From IMG/VR virus record IMGVR_UViG_3300044626_000317, positions 1-23,370 of that record: DNA of 23,370 bases. One strand, written 5' to 3'. This document shows positions 1,736-14,592 of this stretch, one piece after another. A model generated the notes under the pieces. That model had not been told where the DNA came from and searched no databases. It saw only the letters and a list, made by a program, of their open reading frames with translations. Position 1 is the first letter of the stretch; every line of letters starts with the position of its first letter. Origin of the DNA: a virus. The position numbers and the translations under genes were made by a program.

Positions 1736-1765
1736 CTATTTTAACATTTTTTAACAAATCAAGGA

Positions 1766-1800
1766 ATAAAAAAAGGGAATGATTGCCGTCACTCCCCTTC
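1766..1800 (-). terminator. Rho-independent terminator after the late operon
   Basis: On the minus strand AAGGGGAGTGA (1799-1789) pairs with TCATTCCCTT (1782-1773) around a CGGCAA loop, with one bulge and one G-U pair, followed by seven T (1774-1768, the first overlapping the stem). It lies 40 bases after the stop of the 92-aa gene and closes the structural and lysis operon. The reverse strand has a poorer tail, so the direction is probably leftward only. Confidence 0.75.
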
Positions 1801-1830
1801 TCTTTATTCACTTAAAACAGATATGCACTA

Positions 1831-1860
1831 CAAATATAGTTATTTTCTTTTTCTAAGCAA
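1831..1860 (-). promoter_or_regulatory. Candidate promoter just upstream of the terminator
   Basis: TTG (1860-1858), a 19-base spacer and TATATTTG (1838-1831) on the minus strand fit the Bacteroidota -33/-7 pattern well. The element overlaps the last codons of the 92-aa gene and lies only about 30 bases before the terminator. Transcripts would be about 60 nt unless they read through. It may be a chance match in AT-rich DNA. Confidence 0.35.
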
Positions 1861-2118
1861 GAATTTAACAACCTTTCCAATCAATCCTGATTGCTCATTA
1901 ACATCAACCTTCACCTCTCCATTGTTGATCTCAACATCAACCTTCTCAGAATCAACCTTGATGCTCTTGTTGTCCTTATCTTTATGTAATTCAACATCAA
2001 CCTTTGGAGTATCAACCTTAACATCAGTTACTCCATCCTTTCTGGTGATCTTTACATCAACATTCTTGGTATCAATGTTTATATTCAAATTCTTTTTTGG
2101 TCTCCCTGGCTTTTTCAT
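1840..2118 (-). CDS. AT-hook-like, VDV-repeat small protein, 92 aa
   Basis: Not a family I can name. The frame is open to an ATG at 2196, but I choose the ATG at 2118 because it overlaps the endolysin stop as TAATG. It begins MKKPGRPKKN: a GRP core flanked by Lys, like an AT-hook, which in other proteins binds the minor groove of AT-rich DNA. Residues about 11-75 alternate hydrophobic and charged residues with recurring VDV/KVDV units (NVDVKI, DVKVD, KVDVEL, IKVDSEKVDVEI, EVKVDV), suggesting a repeated beta-strand structure. The C-terminus is basic (KFLLRKRK). DNA or envelope binding would be an inference. It is the last gene of the late operon, directly after the endolysin and before a terminator. 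Confidence 0.7.
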   Translation of the reverse strand: MKKPGRPKKNLNINIDTKNVDVKITRKDGVTDVKVDTPKVDVELHKDKDNKSIKVDSEKVDVEINNGEVKVDVNEQSGLIGKVVKFLLRKRK

Positions 2119-2636
2119 TATGCTTCGTTTGTTGTTATTACTCCTTTTGCCGCAAGATGCACAACTCTCACAGATGCTGGCTGTGCAACTTTCCATGCTG
2201 TCCTTCTTGCTTGGCTTAATCTATCCTTTGCAATGCGTGAAACGCTAACTGAGTTATTCTGATTGCCTCCAAGCACATGATAATGTGTTGCATCTTCACC
2301 AACATAAATTCCAACATGACCTCCTCCATTCCTTGTGAATGTCAACACATCTCCAAGCATTGCCACCTTTGCCACATTACCATACTTATTCCAGTTCAAT
2401 GCCCACAATGGATGCTTGACAACATCTAATCCAGCAGCATGAGCACAATAAGCTACGAATAAACCACACCAGGGGATCTCATCATTGGTGTAAACCTTCT
2501 CAAGTCCAAGAGCTTTTGCCCAGGATAGAATGGTTGGATTGTGTTGTTTGCCAACTATCTCCTTTGTGCCAATGTGCTTAACAGCCTCAACCAATATCTT
2601 TGGAGCTGTTTCTTTTTTTAGCCATGCATAGCTCAT
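2118..2636 (-). CDS. Endolysin, CHAP/NlpC-P60-type cysteine peptidase, 172 aa
   Basis: Peptidoglycan-degrading enzyme used for host lysis. It resembles the TIGR02594-type family, in which an N-terminal helical stretch carrying a HNPTI-like motif precedes the catalytic core: here KQHNPTILSWAKALG at residues 30-44. The probable nucleophile is Cys57 in DEIPWCGLFVAYCA. The probable catalytic His107 is in GGGHVGIYVGED, followed by YHVLGGNQ with Asn125. GDVLTF precedes the His, as is usual for CHAP domains. There is no signal peptide, so it would need a holin or similar to cross the inner membrane. Its ATG overlaps the upstream stop as ATGA, and its stop overlaps the next start as TAATG. The two upstream genes are small membrane proteins, giving a compact lysis cassette. 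Confidence 0.88.
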   Translation of the reverse strand: MSYAWLKKETAPKILVEAVKHIGTKEIVGKQHNPTILSWAKALGLEKVYTNDEIPWCGLFVAYCAHAAGLDVVKHPLWALNWNKYGNVAKVAMLGDVLTFTRNGGGHVGIYVGEDATHYHVLGGNQNNSVSVSRIAKDRLSQARRTAWKVAQPASVRVVHLAAKGVITTNEA

Positions 2637-2878
2637 ATTGAATCTCTTTGGATGTAAATATACTTAATTTTTCTTTTGATTGTCAATAGACTATCCACAT
2701 CATGCTTAAGCTTCTCAACCTTGATCTCATTTTCTTTCTCAAGATCATGCAAATATTTTTCAGCTTTGATTGTGGTTTCATCTTTCTTTGGTGCCTTATA
2801 TTGATGAGTTGGCATTGGTGCAAATATTGCAAATAATGAGCTTGCAATTGTGGCAATCAATAATACTTTATTCTCCAT
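2633..2878 (-). CDS. Small membrane/coiled-coil protein, probable lysis accessory, 81 aa
   Basis: Residues about 5-22 (VLLIATIASSLFAIFAPM) form one hydrophobic segment that could be a membrane anchor or signal. Residues 30-70 are strongly charged with heptad-like spacing (KAEKYLHDLEKENEIKVEKL), predicting a coiled coil. This anchor-plus-coil layout and its place between another such gene and the endolysin suggest a spanin (Rz-like) or holin role. No lipobox Cys is present, so it is not an Rz1-type lipoprotein. It overlaps the upstream gene by 11 bases and the endolysin start by ATGA. Lysis function is inferred from layout and position. Confidence 0.6.
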   Translation of the reverse strand: MENKVLLIATIASSLFAIFAPMPTHQYKAPKKDETTIKAEKYLHDLEKENEIKVEKLKHDVDSLLTIKRKIKYIYIQRDSI

Positions 2879-3110
2879 CGAGTTTCTTATTTAGTTCTTT
2901 TTGAAACAATATATCTTGCATCAGTTTTTTATCTGCCTTTCTTTCCTCATCACAATCATCAATCTTTTTTTGTTGTGTTTTGATTTCATTCTCTTTGGAT
3001 GTGATTAGATATCTGCCAATCATAATAACTATGGCAAATAAGACAAAGAATAAATAAGTAAATGGACTTTTTAAGAATGTTTTAAAATCAAGTTTGAATA
3101 TTTTCTCCAT
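2868..3110 (-). CDS. Small membrane/coiled-coil protein, probable lysis accessory, 80 aa
   Basis: After a basic N-terminus, residues about 15-37 (SPFTYLFFVLFAIVIMIGRY) form one transmembrane helix. The rest is Lys/Glu/Asp-rich and likely a coiled coil (about residues 39-76). Topology resembles an inner-membrane spanin subunit or small holin. It is the first of two similar genes before the endolysin, so the two may work together, but they share no obvious sequence identity beyond layout. It follows the 225-aa structural gene after 11 bases. No enzymatic motif is seen. Confidence 0.6.
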   Translation of the reverse strand: MEKIFKLDFKTFLKSPFTYLFFVLFAIVIMIGRYLITSKENEIKTQQKKIDDCDEERKADKKLMQDILFQKELNKKLDGE

Positions 3111-4435: not shown

Positions 4436-4944
4436 TGTATCCAGTTCAATGGTTTATATCCAGTATCATCTTTCTTGACATATTCATTGCAATGATCTGA
4501 GCACATATCACAATACTCTGGATATTTTGTTGCTTGATCATCTTTAAGATATCCAATCAATCTCTCTTTATAAAAATATGCATCCTTTCTCAACTGATCT
4601 CTAAGCTCAGCAACTTGATTCAATTCAAGAGTTGTTTGATTATCATCTTGCACTCTTCCGGCACCTTTATTTGTTAGCTTATCAGTCAATAAAAGAGCAG
4701 CTCTGTAATCAACGAATGCAACCAAACAAGGTACAACATAATCATTCATGAGATCCAAGTAATCTTGAGTCCATGTGTTTGTCTCAACTCTATCAAGCAA
4801 TGCTCTGAATAATGGAGTCCCAAGAGCTGGCTGAATATGCATGTCTTGAGATCTCTTGATGGCCACAGCCAAGAGCTTGGTATCTGTATTGTTGTGAATG
4901 ATACCGAGCTTTTTTAAATTTTCAACTGATAATAGGTAGTTCAT
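4432..4944 (-). CDS. DUF6712-like head-tail connector protein, 170 aa
   Basis: Likely a neck protein joining portal and tail. The N-terminal pattern, a short strand with LLSVENLKKLG followed by a helix with IKRSQDMHIQPALGTPLFRAL (read in two pieces, about residues 29-49), is the hallmark I associate with DUF6712-type connectors of Bacteroidota phages (hydrophobics, then AQxxxIxPxLGxxLY). The middle is helical with an all-alpha feel. The C-terminus has three Cys in CDMCSDHC, which could bind metal. Length fits the family. Start overlaps the upstream methyltransferase stop as ATGA; stop overlaps the possible 45-codon gene in the same way. It normally lies close to the portal gene; here a methyltransferase intervenes. 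Confidence 0.7.
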   Translation of the reverse strand: MNYLLSVENLKKLGIIHNNTDTKLLAVAIKRSQDMHIQPALGTPLFRALLDRVETNTWTQDYLDLMNDYVVPCLVAFVDYRAALLLTDKLTNKGAGRVQDDNQTTLELNQVAELRDQLRKDAYFYKERLIGYLKDDQATKYPEYCDMCSDHCNEYVKKDDTGYKPLNWIQ

Positions 4945-5630
4945 AGCACATAAGTAAATGGAAATCTATATTCATGGTTGTGACCATCAACATAAATTAG
5001 TTTATAACCTCTATTAATAAATGTCTTGTGAAAAGATCCAGTTAAATATTTTATTCTGCGATCCCCTACACAAGTGTAATCCCAACCATTTATGGTTTCT
5101 CCTTTTTCAAATGTAGGAGTTATAATAATATTTTCAGCAAATGACTCAACCCATTCAAGAAATTTATTGACATCTATTTTATTATTTGTCCATTCATCAG
5201 AATTTATTGATCCTTTTGCAACAAGATAATCAACTTTTTGTATTGATGGTCTGTCAATTCTATAGTCATTATAATATCCTTCAAAGCCAAGTAACTGACA
5301 AAATCTAAAAATTACTGGATCATTATCAACAAACAAACATTTCTTTGCTCCCATATCTTTGGCAACAATTAAGCTCTCTGCACTACCTGGACCTAAATCA
5401 ATAATTGATTTATCTTTAAAATCAATATTTAAATAATTATAAATGCTTGACCATATTAATCTATGATGCTCAGCTCCATTGTAGTTGTGAATATTATCAA
5501 CTTGTGAATGGATATATCCCCATAATGATGTCAGATTCTGATAATGCCCTGGAGTATCTTTTATCCATGACACAAGCTCATCCATATTCATTTCCTTACA
5601 ATGCTTTCTTAATTCTGGATATGTTTTCAT
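4941..5630 (-). CDS. SAM-dependent methyltransferase-like protein, 229 aa
   Basis: A class I Rossmann-type methyltransferase by its SAM-binding motif I, SIIDLGPGSAES (residues 75-86), with an acidic motif II at the end of the next strand, LFVDNDP (99-105). After that, YLVAKGSINSDEW resembles the motif III/IV region, but the (D/N)PPY signature of DNA amino-methyltransferases is missing, which argues against a DNA N6-adenine or N4-cytosine enzyme. Substrate unknown: glycan, small molecule or protein are all possible. It is placed between portal (1 base upstream) and connector (ATGA overlap downstream), in the middle of essential head genes. Its AT-rich sequence with more TTA and ATA codons than the flanking genes suggests a separately acquired cargo gene. 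Confidence 0.78.
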   Translation of the reverse strand: MKTYPELRKHCKEMNMDELVSWIKDTPGHYQNLTSLWGYIHSQVDNIHNYNGAEHHRLIWSSIYNYLNIDFKDKSIIDLGPGSAESLIVAKDMGAKKCLFVDNDPVIFRFCQLLGFEGYYNDYRIDRPSIQKVDYLVAKGSINSDEWTNNKIDVNKFLEWVESFAENIIITPTFEKGETINGWDYTCVGDRRIKYLTGSFHKTFINRGYKLIYVDGHNHEYRFPFTYVL

Positions 5631-11252: not shown

Positions 11253-11900
11253 ATGGTTTTTGTCTATCCATACCACAGCAAGTCTGAGTCTGACTTTGAA
11301 ATCAACCAATCAATCAGATGGTTGAGATTAATATATCCAGATGCAGAGATATGGACCATTGGCAAATCTGTTGCTGGAGCCAATAATCTGCCATGCAATC
11401 AACACAATAATATCAGAGGATGTGATGTGACAAATAGGATTCTGACTTTTGCCAGGAACATTGGAGGTGATTTCATCTATATGAACAAAGATTTTTTCAT
11501 TACAAAGATATGGCAACCTCATGTGGCCATAAACATGGGATCAATCATTGTTAATCCAGAACATCCTCCACATACTCAGATTGCTCAACAAAATACTTTA
11601 GAATTCTTAAAACATAACAGCTTTACTGCGTACAATTATGAGACACATACTCCAGTTATGATGAACAGCAAAAAGCTGATTGATCTATTTGACAACATTA
11701 ATTGGCAGAATGACAACCATTTCATCAAATCAATTTATTGCAATGTTTATAAAGTACCATCAAAGGAAGGATTTAATTGCAAGGTATCTGTGCCATCCAT
11801 TGACAAAGCAAAGGAATTCATTGCACTCCAGGGATGTTTCTCAACTGGTGATGGTTTCTGGAATCAATCCAGATCTAATTGGATTAAAATGTACTCTTAG
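11253..11900 (+). CDS. Glycosyltransferase-like (stealth/GT-A type) protein, 215 aa
   Basis: The only plus-strand gene in the window. The N-terminus MVFVYPYHSKSESDFEINQS and IRWLRLIYPDAEIWTIGKSV fits the first nucleotide-sugar strand and helix of a GT-A fold. DFIYMNKDFFI (residues 73-83) sits where related phage transferases have a strand ending in NDD/DxD; here the motif is NKD, so one acidic residue is replaced. A later YNYETHTPVMMN (128-139) resembles the DxHTP segment of stealth-like phosphosugar transferases. Start: ATG at 11253; a TTG nine bases upstream in frame is less likely. It lies 24 bases from the divergent protease start and overlaps the end of the tape measure gene by 17 bases. 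It could modify a virion or host glycan, or be a degenerate enzyme. Confidence 0.65.
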   Translation: MVFVYPYHSKSESDFEINQSIRWLRLIYPDAEIWTIGKSVAGANNLPCNQHNNIRGCDVTNRILTFARNIGGDFIYMNKDFFITKIWQPHVAINMGSIIVNPEHPPHTQIAQQNTLEFLKHNSFTAYNYETHTPVMMNSKKLIDLFDNINWQNDNHFIKSIYCNVYKVPSKEGFNCKVSVPSIDKAKEFIALQGCFSTGDGFWNQSRSNWIKMYS

Positions 11901-14592
11901 CCTCTTGCACCTCAACCTTATTTTGAGTGCCAGTTATATCAGACTCAAGGACCACAACTTGACTGACTGGAACATTGCCTCCTTGACCTTGTCCTAATGT
12001 TGTCAGATCTGTTTGCTGTGCATTTGTGTTGGCTGTGAATGAACTTGCACCGGCACCAGCTTGACCTCCTCCTCCTCCAGTTGATAATTGTGGTGGAGTT
12101 GGTGCAGTTCCTGACTGATATTTTTGATTCATAACAGCCAAGGCTTGAGTCAATCCAATAAGACCAGCACTTGCAATGGCAGCAATACCAGCTGGAGATG
12201 GTGGTGGACCAAACTGAGCAATCCCCTTAACAATTGCACTGGCTGTGTCGATAGCAATCTGTGCAAGCTTCAATGCTTTATCTCTGTTGAATTGAGCTTT
12301 CTTGATTTTCTCTTCCTCCTCATAGGCTTTGAGTTGGACATCATATTTTTGCTTAGCAAATTTTTCCTCAATCTGTTTTTTCTGATCAGCCGTTAATCCT
12401 TCTTGATTCAATTCAGCTTGTAACTTAGCATCCAAGTTTGCAAGATCTGCATCTCTATTCTCTGCAATCTTATTCAACCTGGCTTGATCAATTTCATTCA
12501 TCAAAGCATTCAAATCCTTCAATTGATTCAATGCCTCTTGAGCTCCCTCAATTGCTTGAGTCACTCCTTTAAGCTGCTCCTCTCTTGATTTGATTGCATT
12601 CTCTTTCTCCATATCAGAATACTTCTTATCAATCTCAGCTTTTTTCTTTTTATATTTTTCAGTTAAAATATTCTCTTTGTCAAGATATTCCTCCTCATCA
12701 ATGAGACCAGCTTTCAAAGCATCCAATGCAATGTCTTTCTCACTTTCGTAAGTAGCTTTCAAATCCATTAATTCATTGTCCTTATCTGAATTGAAAAGCC
12801 TTGTATATTTTTCTCTGATCTCTCTCTTTTTAGCTTCTGTCTCAGCCAATTTTGCAAGCTCAATATCAGAATATTTTTTTATCAAATCAGCTTTGTCAAT
12901 CTGAAACTGCATCTCAACTTGAGCCTCAAGTTGTTTATCTCCATGAGCTTGTTCAAGTCTTTTGTCTGATTGGATGACAAGCTCTTGTAATTCTTTCTCA
13001 AATCCAGCTTGCATCAATTCCATTGAAAGAGCAAAGCGATCATCCTCTGCTTTTATTCTTTCTTCATTAGCTTTTTTCTCAGCCTCTGCAATAGCTTTTA
13101 ATCTATTGAGTTCCTCTTCTTTTTCTTTCTCTCTTCTGGCTTTCCTTTTTTCAGCGGCAGCTTTTGCAGCATCCTCTCTTTTTTTCTCTGCATCCTTATT
13201 GGCATCATCTCGTTTCTTTTGCTCTTCAATTTCAAGGATGGTTAAATCTTGAGAGTTCTTTTTATTTTCTTTGTATTGTTCATAAGATGCTCTCTTTGTA
13301 TCTTTAAGTGACTTCTCTAATTTTTTAGCTCGATCACTATCTGCATCTCCTAATGACTTAAGTAATGCAAGCTCTTCCTCATAAGCTGCAATCTTTTGTT
13401 TTTGCATTTGAAAAATTGCTCTACCAGATTTTAATGCAGCCTTAAGTTTCTTTTCCTCCATTTCCTCTGTAGTCTTTCCAGCGGCTTCAGCCTTTCTGAT
13501 TTCAAAGGATAGATTATCATCAACAGCTTTTGCTTTCTTTTTCTCAGCTGCAATCTTTTTGTTCATCTCTTTTTCTGTGGCATCTGTCTTTGCCTTTGCA
13601 TTGGCTTTCATCTTTGCTGTCTGAGCATCATCAATGACTCCAAAATATTCAAGAGCTTTGACAATTCCATAAATAGCTCCGACAAATATTAACAAAGGAC
13701 CACTTACCAATCCTAAAATAACTGCAGAAAGAATTTTTATTTTTGGTCCAAGCTTATCAAACCAATTATAAGCTTTGGTAACCGCTGCAGATACCTTATC
13801 AAAATTTGCAATCAATAAACCAATACCAACAACAATGGCACCAATACCAGTTGAAATCAATGCTAATCTAAACAATTTCATTGCTGTTGTTGCTCCTCCA
13901 GTTGCTGTGGCAAGTCCAACATTTGCACCAGTCTGAGCTTGTGTAGCCGCAACTCCAGCCAATGCTGGAGCAATACTGCCAGTCATTATGAAATTCTTAG
14001 CTTTCTCAAGTCCATTTCTTAATTGCAATCCAAGGATTGACTCCTTGTTAAGATTATTTGCTATGATTGAAACTGAGTTGACAAGTCCCTGGACAGCTTG
14101 CAATTTAACCATTGTTTGAACAAGAGCCTCATTCTCAACACCAGCCAATGCAGCTGCAGATTGAATTCCTTGGAATGCAGCTGCTCCAGTCTCAACTCCT
14201 TGCAAGGTAGTATCCAATCCAACAAAGTCAGATGACAATGCCATTGTCTGAGCCTTGAGATCACCAATCTCATCTTTTAATCCAGCCGCATTTGAAATGG
14301 CTTGCTTTCCAATTGGACTCTCAGCTCCAGCTCTTGCCGCTAAATTCTGATATTCCTTCATGAGCTTAGTCATCTCACGCATTGAGAGACCACCATCCTC
14401 AAGTCTCTGATTAAGCTCAGCAAGCTTCTGATCAAATGTCTCCATTCCTTTTGTGGAGGCATCTGTTGCTGTCTTGGATGTATCTTTTAAATCTTTGTTC
14501 AAATCCTCAACAGCCTTATCAAAGGCTTGAATATCTTGAACAGATTTACCAGTATCAACCTTGAGTGAGAATACCGCTGTTTTTTCTGCCAT
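11884..14592 (-). CDS. Tape measure protein, 902 aa
   Basis: Sets tail length and is threaded through the tail tube. Length, coiled-coil content and hydrophobic segments are characteristic. It opens MAEKTAVFSLKVDTGKSVQD, typical of tape measures. Residues about 240-265 (LISTGIGAIVVGIGLLIA) and 286-315 (LSAVILGLVSGPLLIFVGAI) are membrane-like helices. Residues about 330-760 are extremely rich in Lys, Glu and Ala with long coiled coils (KEKEEELNRLKAIAEAEKK). A third hydrophobic stretch (AGIAAIASAGLIGLTQALAV) precedes a Gly-rich linker and a Gln/Thr-rich C-terminus. By the usual rule of about 0.15 nm per residue the tail would be near 135 nm. It follows the fibre cassette instead of the chaperone gene, which is unusual. 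No peptidoglycan hydrolase motif was noticed. Confidence 0.9.
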   Translation of the reverse strand: MAEKTAVFSLKVDTGKSVQDIQAFDKAVEDLNKDLKDTSKTATDASTKGMETFDQKLAELNQRLEDGGLSMREMTKLMKEYQNLAARAGAESPIGKQAISNAAGLKDEIGDLKAQTMALSSDFVGLDTTLQGVETGAAAFQGIQSAAALAGVENEALVQTMVKLQAVQGLVNSVSIIANNLNKESILGLQLRNGLEKAKNFIMTGSIAPALAGVAATQAQTGANVGLATATGGATTAMKLFRLALISTGIGAIVVGIGLLIANFDKVSAAVTKAYNWFDKLGPKIKILSAVILGLVSGPLLIFVGAIYGIVKALEYFGVIDDAQTAKMKANAKAKTDATEKEMNKKIAAEKKKAKAVDDNLSFEIRKAEAAGKTTEEMEEKKLKAALKSGRAIFQMQKQKIAAYEEELALLKSLGDADSDRAKKLEKSLKDTKRASYEQYKENKKNSQDLTILEIEEQKKRDDANKDAEKKREDAAKAAAEKRKARREKEKEEELNRLKAIAEAEKKANEERIKAEDDRFALSMELMQAGFEKELQELVIQSDKRLEQAHGDKQLEAQVEMQFQIDKADLIKKYSDIELAKLAETEAKKREIREKYTRLFNSDKDNELMDLKATYESEKDIALDALKAGLIDEEEYLDKENILTEKYKKKKAEIDKKYSDMEKENAIKSREEQLKGVTQAIEGAQEALNQLKDLNALMNEIDQARLNKIAENRDADLANLDAKLQAELNQEGLTADQKKQIEEKFAKQKYDVQLKAYEEEEKIKKAQFNRDKALKLAQIAIDTASAIVKGIAQFGPPPSPAGIAAIASAGLIGLTQALAVMNQKYQSGTAPTPPQLSTGGGGGQAGAGASSFTANTNAQQTDLTTLGQGQGGNVPVSQVVVLESDITGTQNKVEVQEAKSTF

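Follow-up and report, generated by a model that had tools for sequence, protein, structure and literature searches.

A strand-repeat protein family beside phage lysis enzymes is a candidate outer-membrane disruptor that may alternate with unimolecular spanins

What does a small protein of repeated strands, basic at both ends, do as the last gene of a phage lysis cassette? The gene in question lies at positions 1840 to 2118 on the minus strand of a virus record of 23,370 bases (the whole stretch analysed, here called the window), which also carries terminase, portal and protease-like genes. Its product, MKKPGRPKKNLNINIDTKNVDVKITRKDGVTDVKVDTPKVDVELHKDKDNKSIKVDSEKVDVEINNGEVKVDVNEQSGLIGKVVKFLLRKRK, is 92 amino acids long; we refer to it as the VDV protein and consider it a candidate outer-membrane disruptor. 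Upstream on the same strand lies an endolysin of 172 amino acids (2118 to 2636), CHAP or NlpC-P60-like, with Pfam matches just below the cut-offs; a relative of this enzyme in locus L045 passes the cut-offs for both families. The endolysin is preceded by an 81-aa ORF (2633 to 2878, minus strand) with a hydrophobic N-terminus, an otherwise charged sequence and no lipobox, and by an 80-aa ORF (2868 to 3110, minus strand) with a single hydrophobic segment, holin-like or accessory, for which PHROGs gave only weak matches. The ATG of the VDV gene and the stop codon of the endolysin overlap by one nucleotide (TAATG), an arrangement seen in 67 of 80 relatives (the best 80 of 94 from one scan of viral contigs), and the original prediction was right to make the gene the last of the lysis genes. 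In the window the frame is open further upstream and could encode 118 aa, but the 92-aa start is likely because many relatives have a stop codon immediately before the methionine. A terminator-like hairpin with a U-run that is partly paired in the predicted fold (1755 to 1812, minus strand; -20.1 kcal/mol, z -3.6) begins 27 nt past the VDV stop; it was seen by folding, and a terminator pattern scan listed none. The endolysin is 60% identical to Flavobacterium phage proteins, which points to a host that is probably one of the Bacteroidota.

Other features of the minus strand deserve mention in their own right. An open frame of 369 codons (1 to 1107) extends past the start of the window and reads SPPCQAFSLAGKRLGKDDKRG; by its motif it looks like a putative cytosine-5 DNA methyltransferase. 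The ORFs at 1099 to 1242 and 1115 to 1330 overlap by 128 bases in different frames, and both have matches in distant relatives (G006, L067); this points to a conserved pair of overlapping genes. Among the structural genes a 902-aa protein (11884 to 14592) had no PHROG match at E 0.01.

The VDV gene is, with high confidence, real and under purifying selection. Its dN/dS is 0.09 (617 pairs among 36 relatives, first 75 codons) and the variable sites at the three codon positions in these relatives are 31, 15 and 66 of 75. The repeated units that had been noticed in the sequence are present beyond chance: nine [VI][DKN][VI] triplets were observed, where 20,000 shuffles gave 1.9 on average and never more than 8 (p 5e-5), and four strict [VI]D[VI] triplets, where they gave 0.56 (p 0.0015). 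Charge is unevenly spread in the window protein, with a net +5 for residues 1-10, -4 for residues 11-75 and +6 for residues 76-92, giving +7 for the whole; the C-terminus is thus basic, as had been proposed.

AlphaFold2 gave a mean pLDDT of 80.6 and a pTM of 0.61 for the window protein with a diverse alignment of 56 rows; a first model made with close relatives only had a pLDDT of 60. Seven strands and a C-terminal helix were common to both models. The strands are predicted at residues 11-16, 21-27, 30-36, 40-46, 51-57, 60-65 and 68-73, joined by turns of 2-4 residues, and form a body encoded by codons 11-73 (1900 to 2088, minus strand), with block means of 85-92 for residues 11-70. The N-terminal tail has a mean of 63, and the C-terminal stretch (codons 78-92; 1843 to 1887, minus strand), a low-confidence predicted helix of cationic character, falls from 65 to 51. 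Of the repeated beta structure expected from the sequence the strands are borne out by prediction; Foldseek found no PDB match for either model at E 0.001, adhesins and solenoids included. VIA-align placed the membrane-piercing protein of phage phi92 in its top row (Z 7.8, rmsd 2.0, 57 residues aligned) and the OspA sheet lower (Z 6.8, rmsd 3.5, 71 aligned), values under the Z of 8 below which, by the tool's own note, a match may reflect just a common arrangement. A BFVD search with the first model returned three phage proteins at E below 0.001 with identities of 81, 38 and 34%, two of them called "uncharacterized" and one nameless.

The N-terminal tail (codons 1-10; 2089 to 2118, minus strand) had been read as an AT-hook, a motif that binds AT-rich DNA in its minor groove. 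The basic tail is there, and its likeness to AT-hook proteins lies in the KKPGRPKK core of one VDV clade; a DNA-binding hook found no support. GRP was present in 40 and absent from 40 of the 80 close loci (the best 80 of the 94 viral-contig relatives), where the N-termini lacking it read MKTPKKKK, MKEPKKKK, MKKPAKPKK or MAKKKN, and because of this absence, which the original prediction had itself named as grounds against a hook, the AT-hook fails as a family trait, a conclusion we hold with high confidence. Among 104 distinct members GRP occurs within the first 15 residues in 36 and is absent from 68, and at least four lysines or arginines are found in the first ten residues of 93. Divergent members start MAKKK, MGRKKK or MSKKEKK, and members of 87 aa, which start MENRKEDFEV or similar, lack a lysine-rich tail. 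Unlike in AT-hook proteins, then, the core is not conserved and the tail is missing altogether from some members, and we rejected the hook at the level of the family. The GRP clade may nevertheless bind DNA in a lineage-specific manner.

To which family does the protein belong? In some close relatives the enzyme alongside is of the M15 peptidase or Amidase_2 type rather than the CHAP type, and loci were also retrieved by the M15 and amidase enzymes (in each case the best 80 from a larger number). In these enzyme-fetched loci a profile made from the close relatives found divergent VDV members at E 3e-16 to 6e-7, which are 23-40% identical to the window protein; three more profile rounds over the same loci gave no new member at E 1e-4 or better. 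Members are 87-103 aa long. Outside these loci, three members used as tblastn queries found nothing at E 1 in 50,697 phage records, none of the members tried came near a Pfam or NCBIfam cut-off (nor did Pfam with the first 24 residues alone give a match), and a PDB sequence search found nothing at E 1. PHROGs gave no match better than E 0.01, the top one being phrog_13736 with 7 of 61 members at E 0.1. None of 58 pattern-matching stretches in genome contigs was confirmed as VDV, and no VDV was seen in the stretches examined of five phages (best E 0.43): the gut crAss-like Carjivirus communis and cr271_1, whose cassettes were covered, Tenacibaculum phage PTm1, a 735-kb phage and Flavobacterium phage FPSV-D2. 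The LiaG model of NCBIfam (NF049997), which shares with VDV a repeated-strand stretch aligning over residues 15-86, scored E 0.0014 and 17.9 bits against a cut-off of 285, far below it, and the resemblance is probably one of composition. The open-access literature searched yielded no description of the family, which has no name to search by, in keeping with the original statement that no family with this combination was known.

Some of the divergent carriers look crAss-like; near the cassette of L239, a 277-aa gene is about 25% identical to Crassvirales PD-(D/E)XK nucleases, a weak resemblance that a few other phages share. In L067 the portal (match at 1937 to 2833) is 25% identical to that of the window, and the CHAP enzyme (4485 to 4997) and VDV (5001 to 5273) are 70% and 68% identical. 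From these values the enzyme and VDV seem to move as a pair between phage backbones.

VDV almost always adjoins the lysis enzyme. This was so for 115 of 118 matches in 117 unique loci, 94 after the enzyme and 21 before it, and the enzymes were of the CHAP, M15 or Amidase_2 type. The exceptions are L169, where a gene lies between, a second copy in L179, and L002, whose frame is open from further upstream, the VDV gene itself beginning immediately after the enzyme. In L179 (3493 to 4022) two VDV-family frames stand in tandem, the second of 70 residues and lacking the first strands. In 17 of 17 new loci VDV again adjoined the enzyme, here before it. We regard the family, the gene and the enzyme-side slot as established with high confidence. 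A further small protein recurs in this neighbourhood: in many divergent cassettes a 52-aa protein (such as MKFRNNWK...FTLKNR, L153, 3465 to 3623) follows the enzyme or VDV, with similar proteins in like position in L161, L169, L233, L253 and L436; PHROGs gave nothing at E 0.1 for the one tested.

Where loci of these enzyme families lack VDV we frequently found, often in the same slot, ORFs with the topology of a unimolecular spanin (u-spanin), defined here as a lipobox together with a C-terminal TM segment. The strict rule returned 25 of them. The enzyme is directly adjoined by 15, with 8 ahead of it and 7 behind, and the other 10 are found at different places within 2 kb. Among the ORFs of this topology that were listed, lengths are 140-209 aa. 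In the CHAP loci L320, L321, L331, L332 and L341 such an ORF stands immediately before the enzyme. These calls are topological ones, since PHROGs named none of the six tested as a spanin; unimolecular spanins are annotated in phages of marine flavobacteria, according to part of PMC8776804.

No examined locus carried both VDV and an ORF of u-spanin topology. The first set comprised 201 unique loci, 117 with VDV and 84 without, searched over 2 kb. Pooling M15 and amidase loci, the topology occurred in 0 of 47 VDV loci versus 25 of 84 VDV-less ones. In Fisher tests, which count kin loci as independent, the difference was 0/25 versus 9/42 for M15 (p 0.021) and 0/22 versus 16/42 for amidase (p 0.0005); restricted to loci with flanks of at least 2 kb on both sides it was 0/15 versus 5/25 (p 0.14, not significant alone) and 0/15 versus 12/21 (p 0.0003), respectively. 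The CHAP loci (0 of 70 with both) give no fair test because they were fetched by VDV itself. A looser rule requiring the lipobox only was satisfied in 3 of 117 VDV loci versus 27 of 84 others, and 59 of the 84 VDV-less loci had neither VDV nor the u-spanin topology. A second set of 72 previously unseen loci, whose 17 VDV loci are all amidase loci, gave 0/17 versus 19/55 by the strict rule (Fisher 0.0036) and 23/55 by the relaxed one; among its enzyme-fetched loci the figures were 0/17 versus 11/45 (Fisher 0.026) and 14/45. When a u-spanin served as the query, 15 unique loci were retrieved, and none of them contained VDV.

Lineage history is a real confounder of this exclusion. The enzyme trees require few changes of VDV, 5 for M15, 4 and 6 on two amidase trees and 2 for CHAP, and on well-supported branches the independent pairs differing in VDV numbered 2, 3 and 3, and 1. 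The VDV-less partner has a u-spanin on average in 0.3 (M15), 1.6 and 2.6 (amidase) and 0.8 (CHAP) of these pairs; the opposite type of pair cannot arise because no locus has both genes. With so few independent exchanges, none of the phylogeny-corrected sign tests reached 0.05. Individual loci show both sides of the matter. L349 (VDV) and L353 (u-spanin topology) have amidases that are 81% identical, followed by five ORFs that match in order at 36-79%, and differ in the upstream cassette: VDV adjoins the enzyme in the former, and the u-spanin-topology ORF lies one gene from it in the latter. L348 shares with its near enzyme relatives L351 or L355 only the enzyme among the ORFs compared, and since such pairs can differ in all other ORFs compared, part of the exclusion is due to exchange of whole modules or to lineage history. 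Judging from the loci, the wall-cutting enzyme and the outer-membrane step may be exchanged independently of each other, with no cassette holding more than one recognisable module of these two outer-membrane kinds.

If VDV occupies the place of a spanin, is there another spanin in these phages? On the coding strand of the window, which is possibly a fragment, no lipobox ORF of at least 30 aa was found in any frame with ATG, GTG or TTG starts. Six VDV records of 33 kb, whose completeness is not stated, contained one 53-aa lipobox candidate on the VDV strand and otherwise candidates on the opposite strand. In one u-spanin control record the same scan returned a clear ORF of 177 aa, together with a lipoprotein-like ORF of 52 aa and chance-like ones. 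There is thus no clear spanin-like lipoprotein in the seven VDV records, by lipobox scan; the 81-aa and 80-aa neighbours in the window could be spanin-pair proteins of another topology. VDV itself does not look like a u-spanin: the window protein has no cysteine, starts MKKPGRPKKN and lacks the lipobox and signal peptide, and has no C-terminal TM segment, the predicted cationic helix of 14 residues being too short and too charged. By like reasoning, section 15 of PMC6139136 infers that phages without spanins have another way to disrupt the outer membrane.

The constant slot beside the enzyme, the exclusion with u-spanin topology and the lack of a clear spanin-like lipoprotein lead us to propose VDV as the component of lysis that disrupts the outer membrane, a non-homologous replacement of the spanin; we give this reading close to an even chance. 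The holin would open the inner membrane and the endolysin would cut the peptidoglycan, after which VDV would disrupt the outer membrane of the host, taking the place of the spanin without signal peptide, lipobox or TM segment. The protein would accumulate in the cytoplasm and leave it through the holin along with the endolysin, and its cationic C-terminal helix, carried on a beta body that is perhaps oligomeric, would act on the membrane. The basic C-terminal tail is kept in every VDV row shown in the alignment. Tails such as GFLKKIGNFISKIF were amphipathic beyond shuffles at 0.05 in 8 of 10 hand-picked members; the tail of the window protein was no more so than shuffled tails (p 0.15), and likewise that of one member of the KKKK clade.

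The same position beside the enzyme and near TM proteins would suit a protein that acts in lysis timing or enzyme handling by binding to holin or enzyme, either antiholin-like or a chaperone of the endolysin. The overlap of the VDV start with the enzyme stop in most of the close clade is consistent with such a role, and its cationic helix might attach to the inner membrane. But VDV is kept with three unrelated enzyme types and different sets of TM proteins, which argues against one specific partner, and the exclusion with u-spanin-topology ORFs would go unexplained; we consider this reading unlikely, if with a sizeable share of the probability. VDV might also be the soluble, bridging part of an unusual two-part spanin whose other part is a membrane-anchored neighbour, as charged proteins with one hydrophobic segment lie upstream in the window (2633 to 2878 and 2868 to 3110) and in other VDV cassettes. 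These neighbours vary between VDV lineages, similar TM proteins occur in the VDV-less loci L195, L197 and L232, and no outer-membrane anchor is seen, which makes a two-part system very improbable in our estimate.

A role outside lysis, as a late structural or DNA-associated protein (a spike tip or a genome-binding protein) that is in the cassette by chance, would fit the GRP core of one clade and the phi92 protein in the top VIA-align row, and the top PHROG of the window enzyme is a baseplate hub and tail lysozyme. Against it stand the unconserved N-terminal tail, the VIA-align score in the range of common arrangements, and the neighbour itself, an enzyme that stands alone, is exchangeable with M15 and amidase, and shares its cassette with TM proteins; we judge such a role improbable.

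An outer-membrane disruptor of this kind would have partial precedents. Small cationic proteins in this role reportedly include the disruptin of phage phiKT (Holt et al. 2022). Spanin-less phages and disruptors other than spanins are described in section 15 of PMC6139136 and in part of PMC12819732, where the disruptin is a small, cationic, anchorless phage protein proposed for the outer-membrane step. As far as that account goes, VDV shares with the disruptin its small size, its charge, the lack of an anchor, the location in the lysis region and, within the reach of the lipobox scans, an occurrence in phages with no clear spanin. The disruptin has an amphipathic helix, a property that in VDV is clear for divergent members and not for the window tail, and VDV is mostly a predicted seven-strand body with a helix only at its end. 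The likeness is one of setting and charge, and we do not class VDV as a disruptin. With unimolecular spanins of the T1 gp11 type VDV shares the endolysin-side slot in related phages and differs in lacking the lipobox, signal peptide and C-terminal TM segment; u-spanins depend on beta-sheet oligomerisation, as stated in part of a review (PMC9636201). The phiKMV-like endolysins with a cationic amphipathic C-terminal domain (PMC6139136, section 15) resemble VDV in that a cationic C-terminal helix is delivered with the enzyme, but in VDV it would be carried by a separate small protein beside the enzyme.

Taken together our results define VDV as an alignable family with a predicted fold and a neighbourhood signature, recognisable by profile and by its slot beside the enzyme. 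More tentatively, and with somewhat less than even probability, we propose that uncultured phages which by inference infect Bacteroidota, crAss-like ones included, use a soluble disruptor made of a beta body and a cationic helix that trades places with unimolecular spanins. If this were true, the outer-membrane step would be carried out by a disruptor that is neither a spanin nor a simple peptide, in cassettes where the enzyme is interchangeable, and through this exchange with unimolecular spanins VDV may explain some of the phages that have yielded no spanin.
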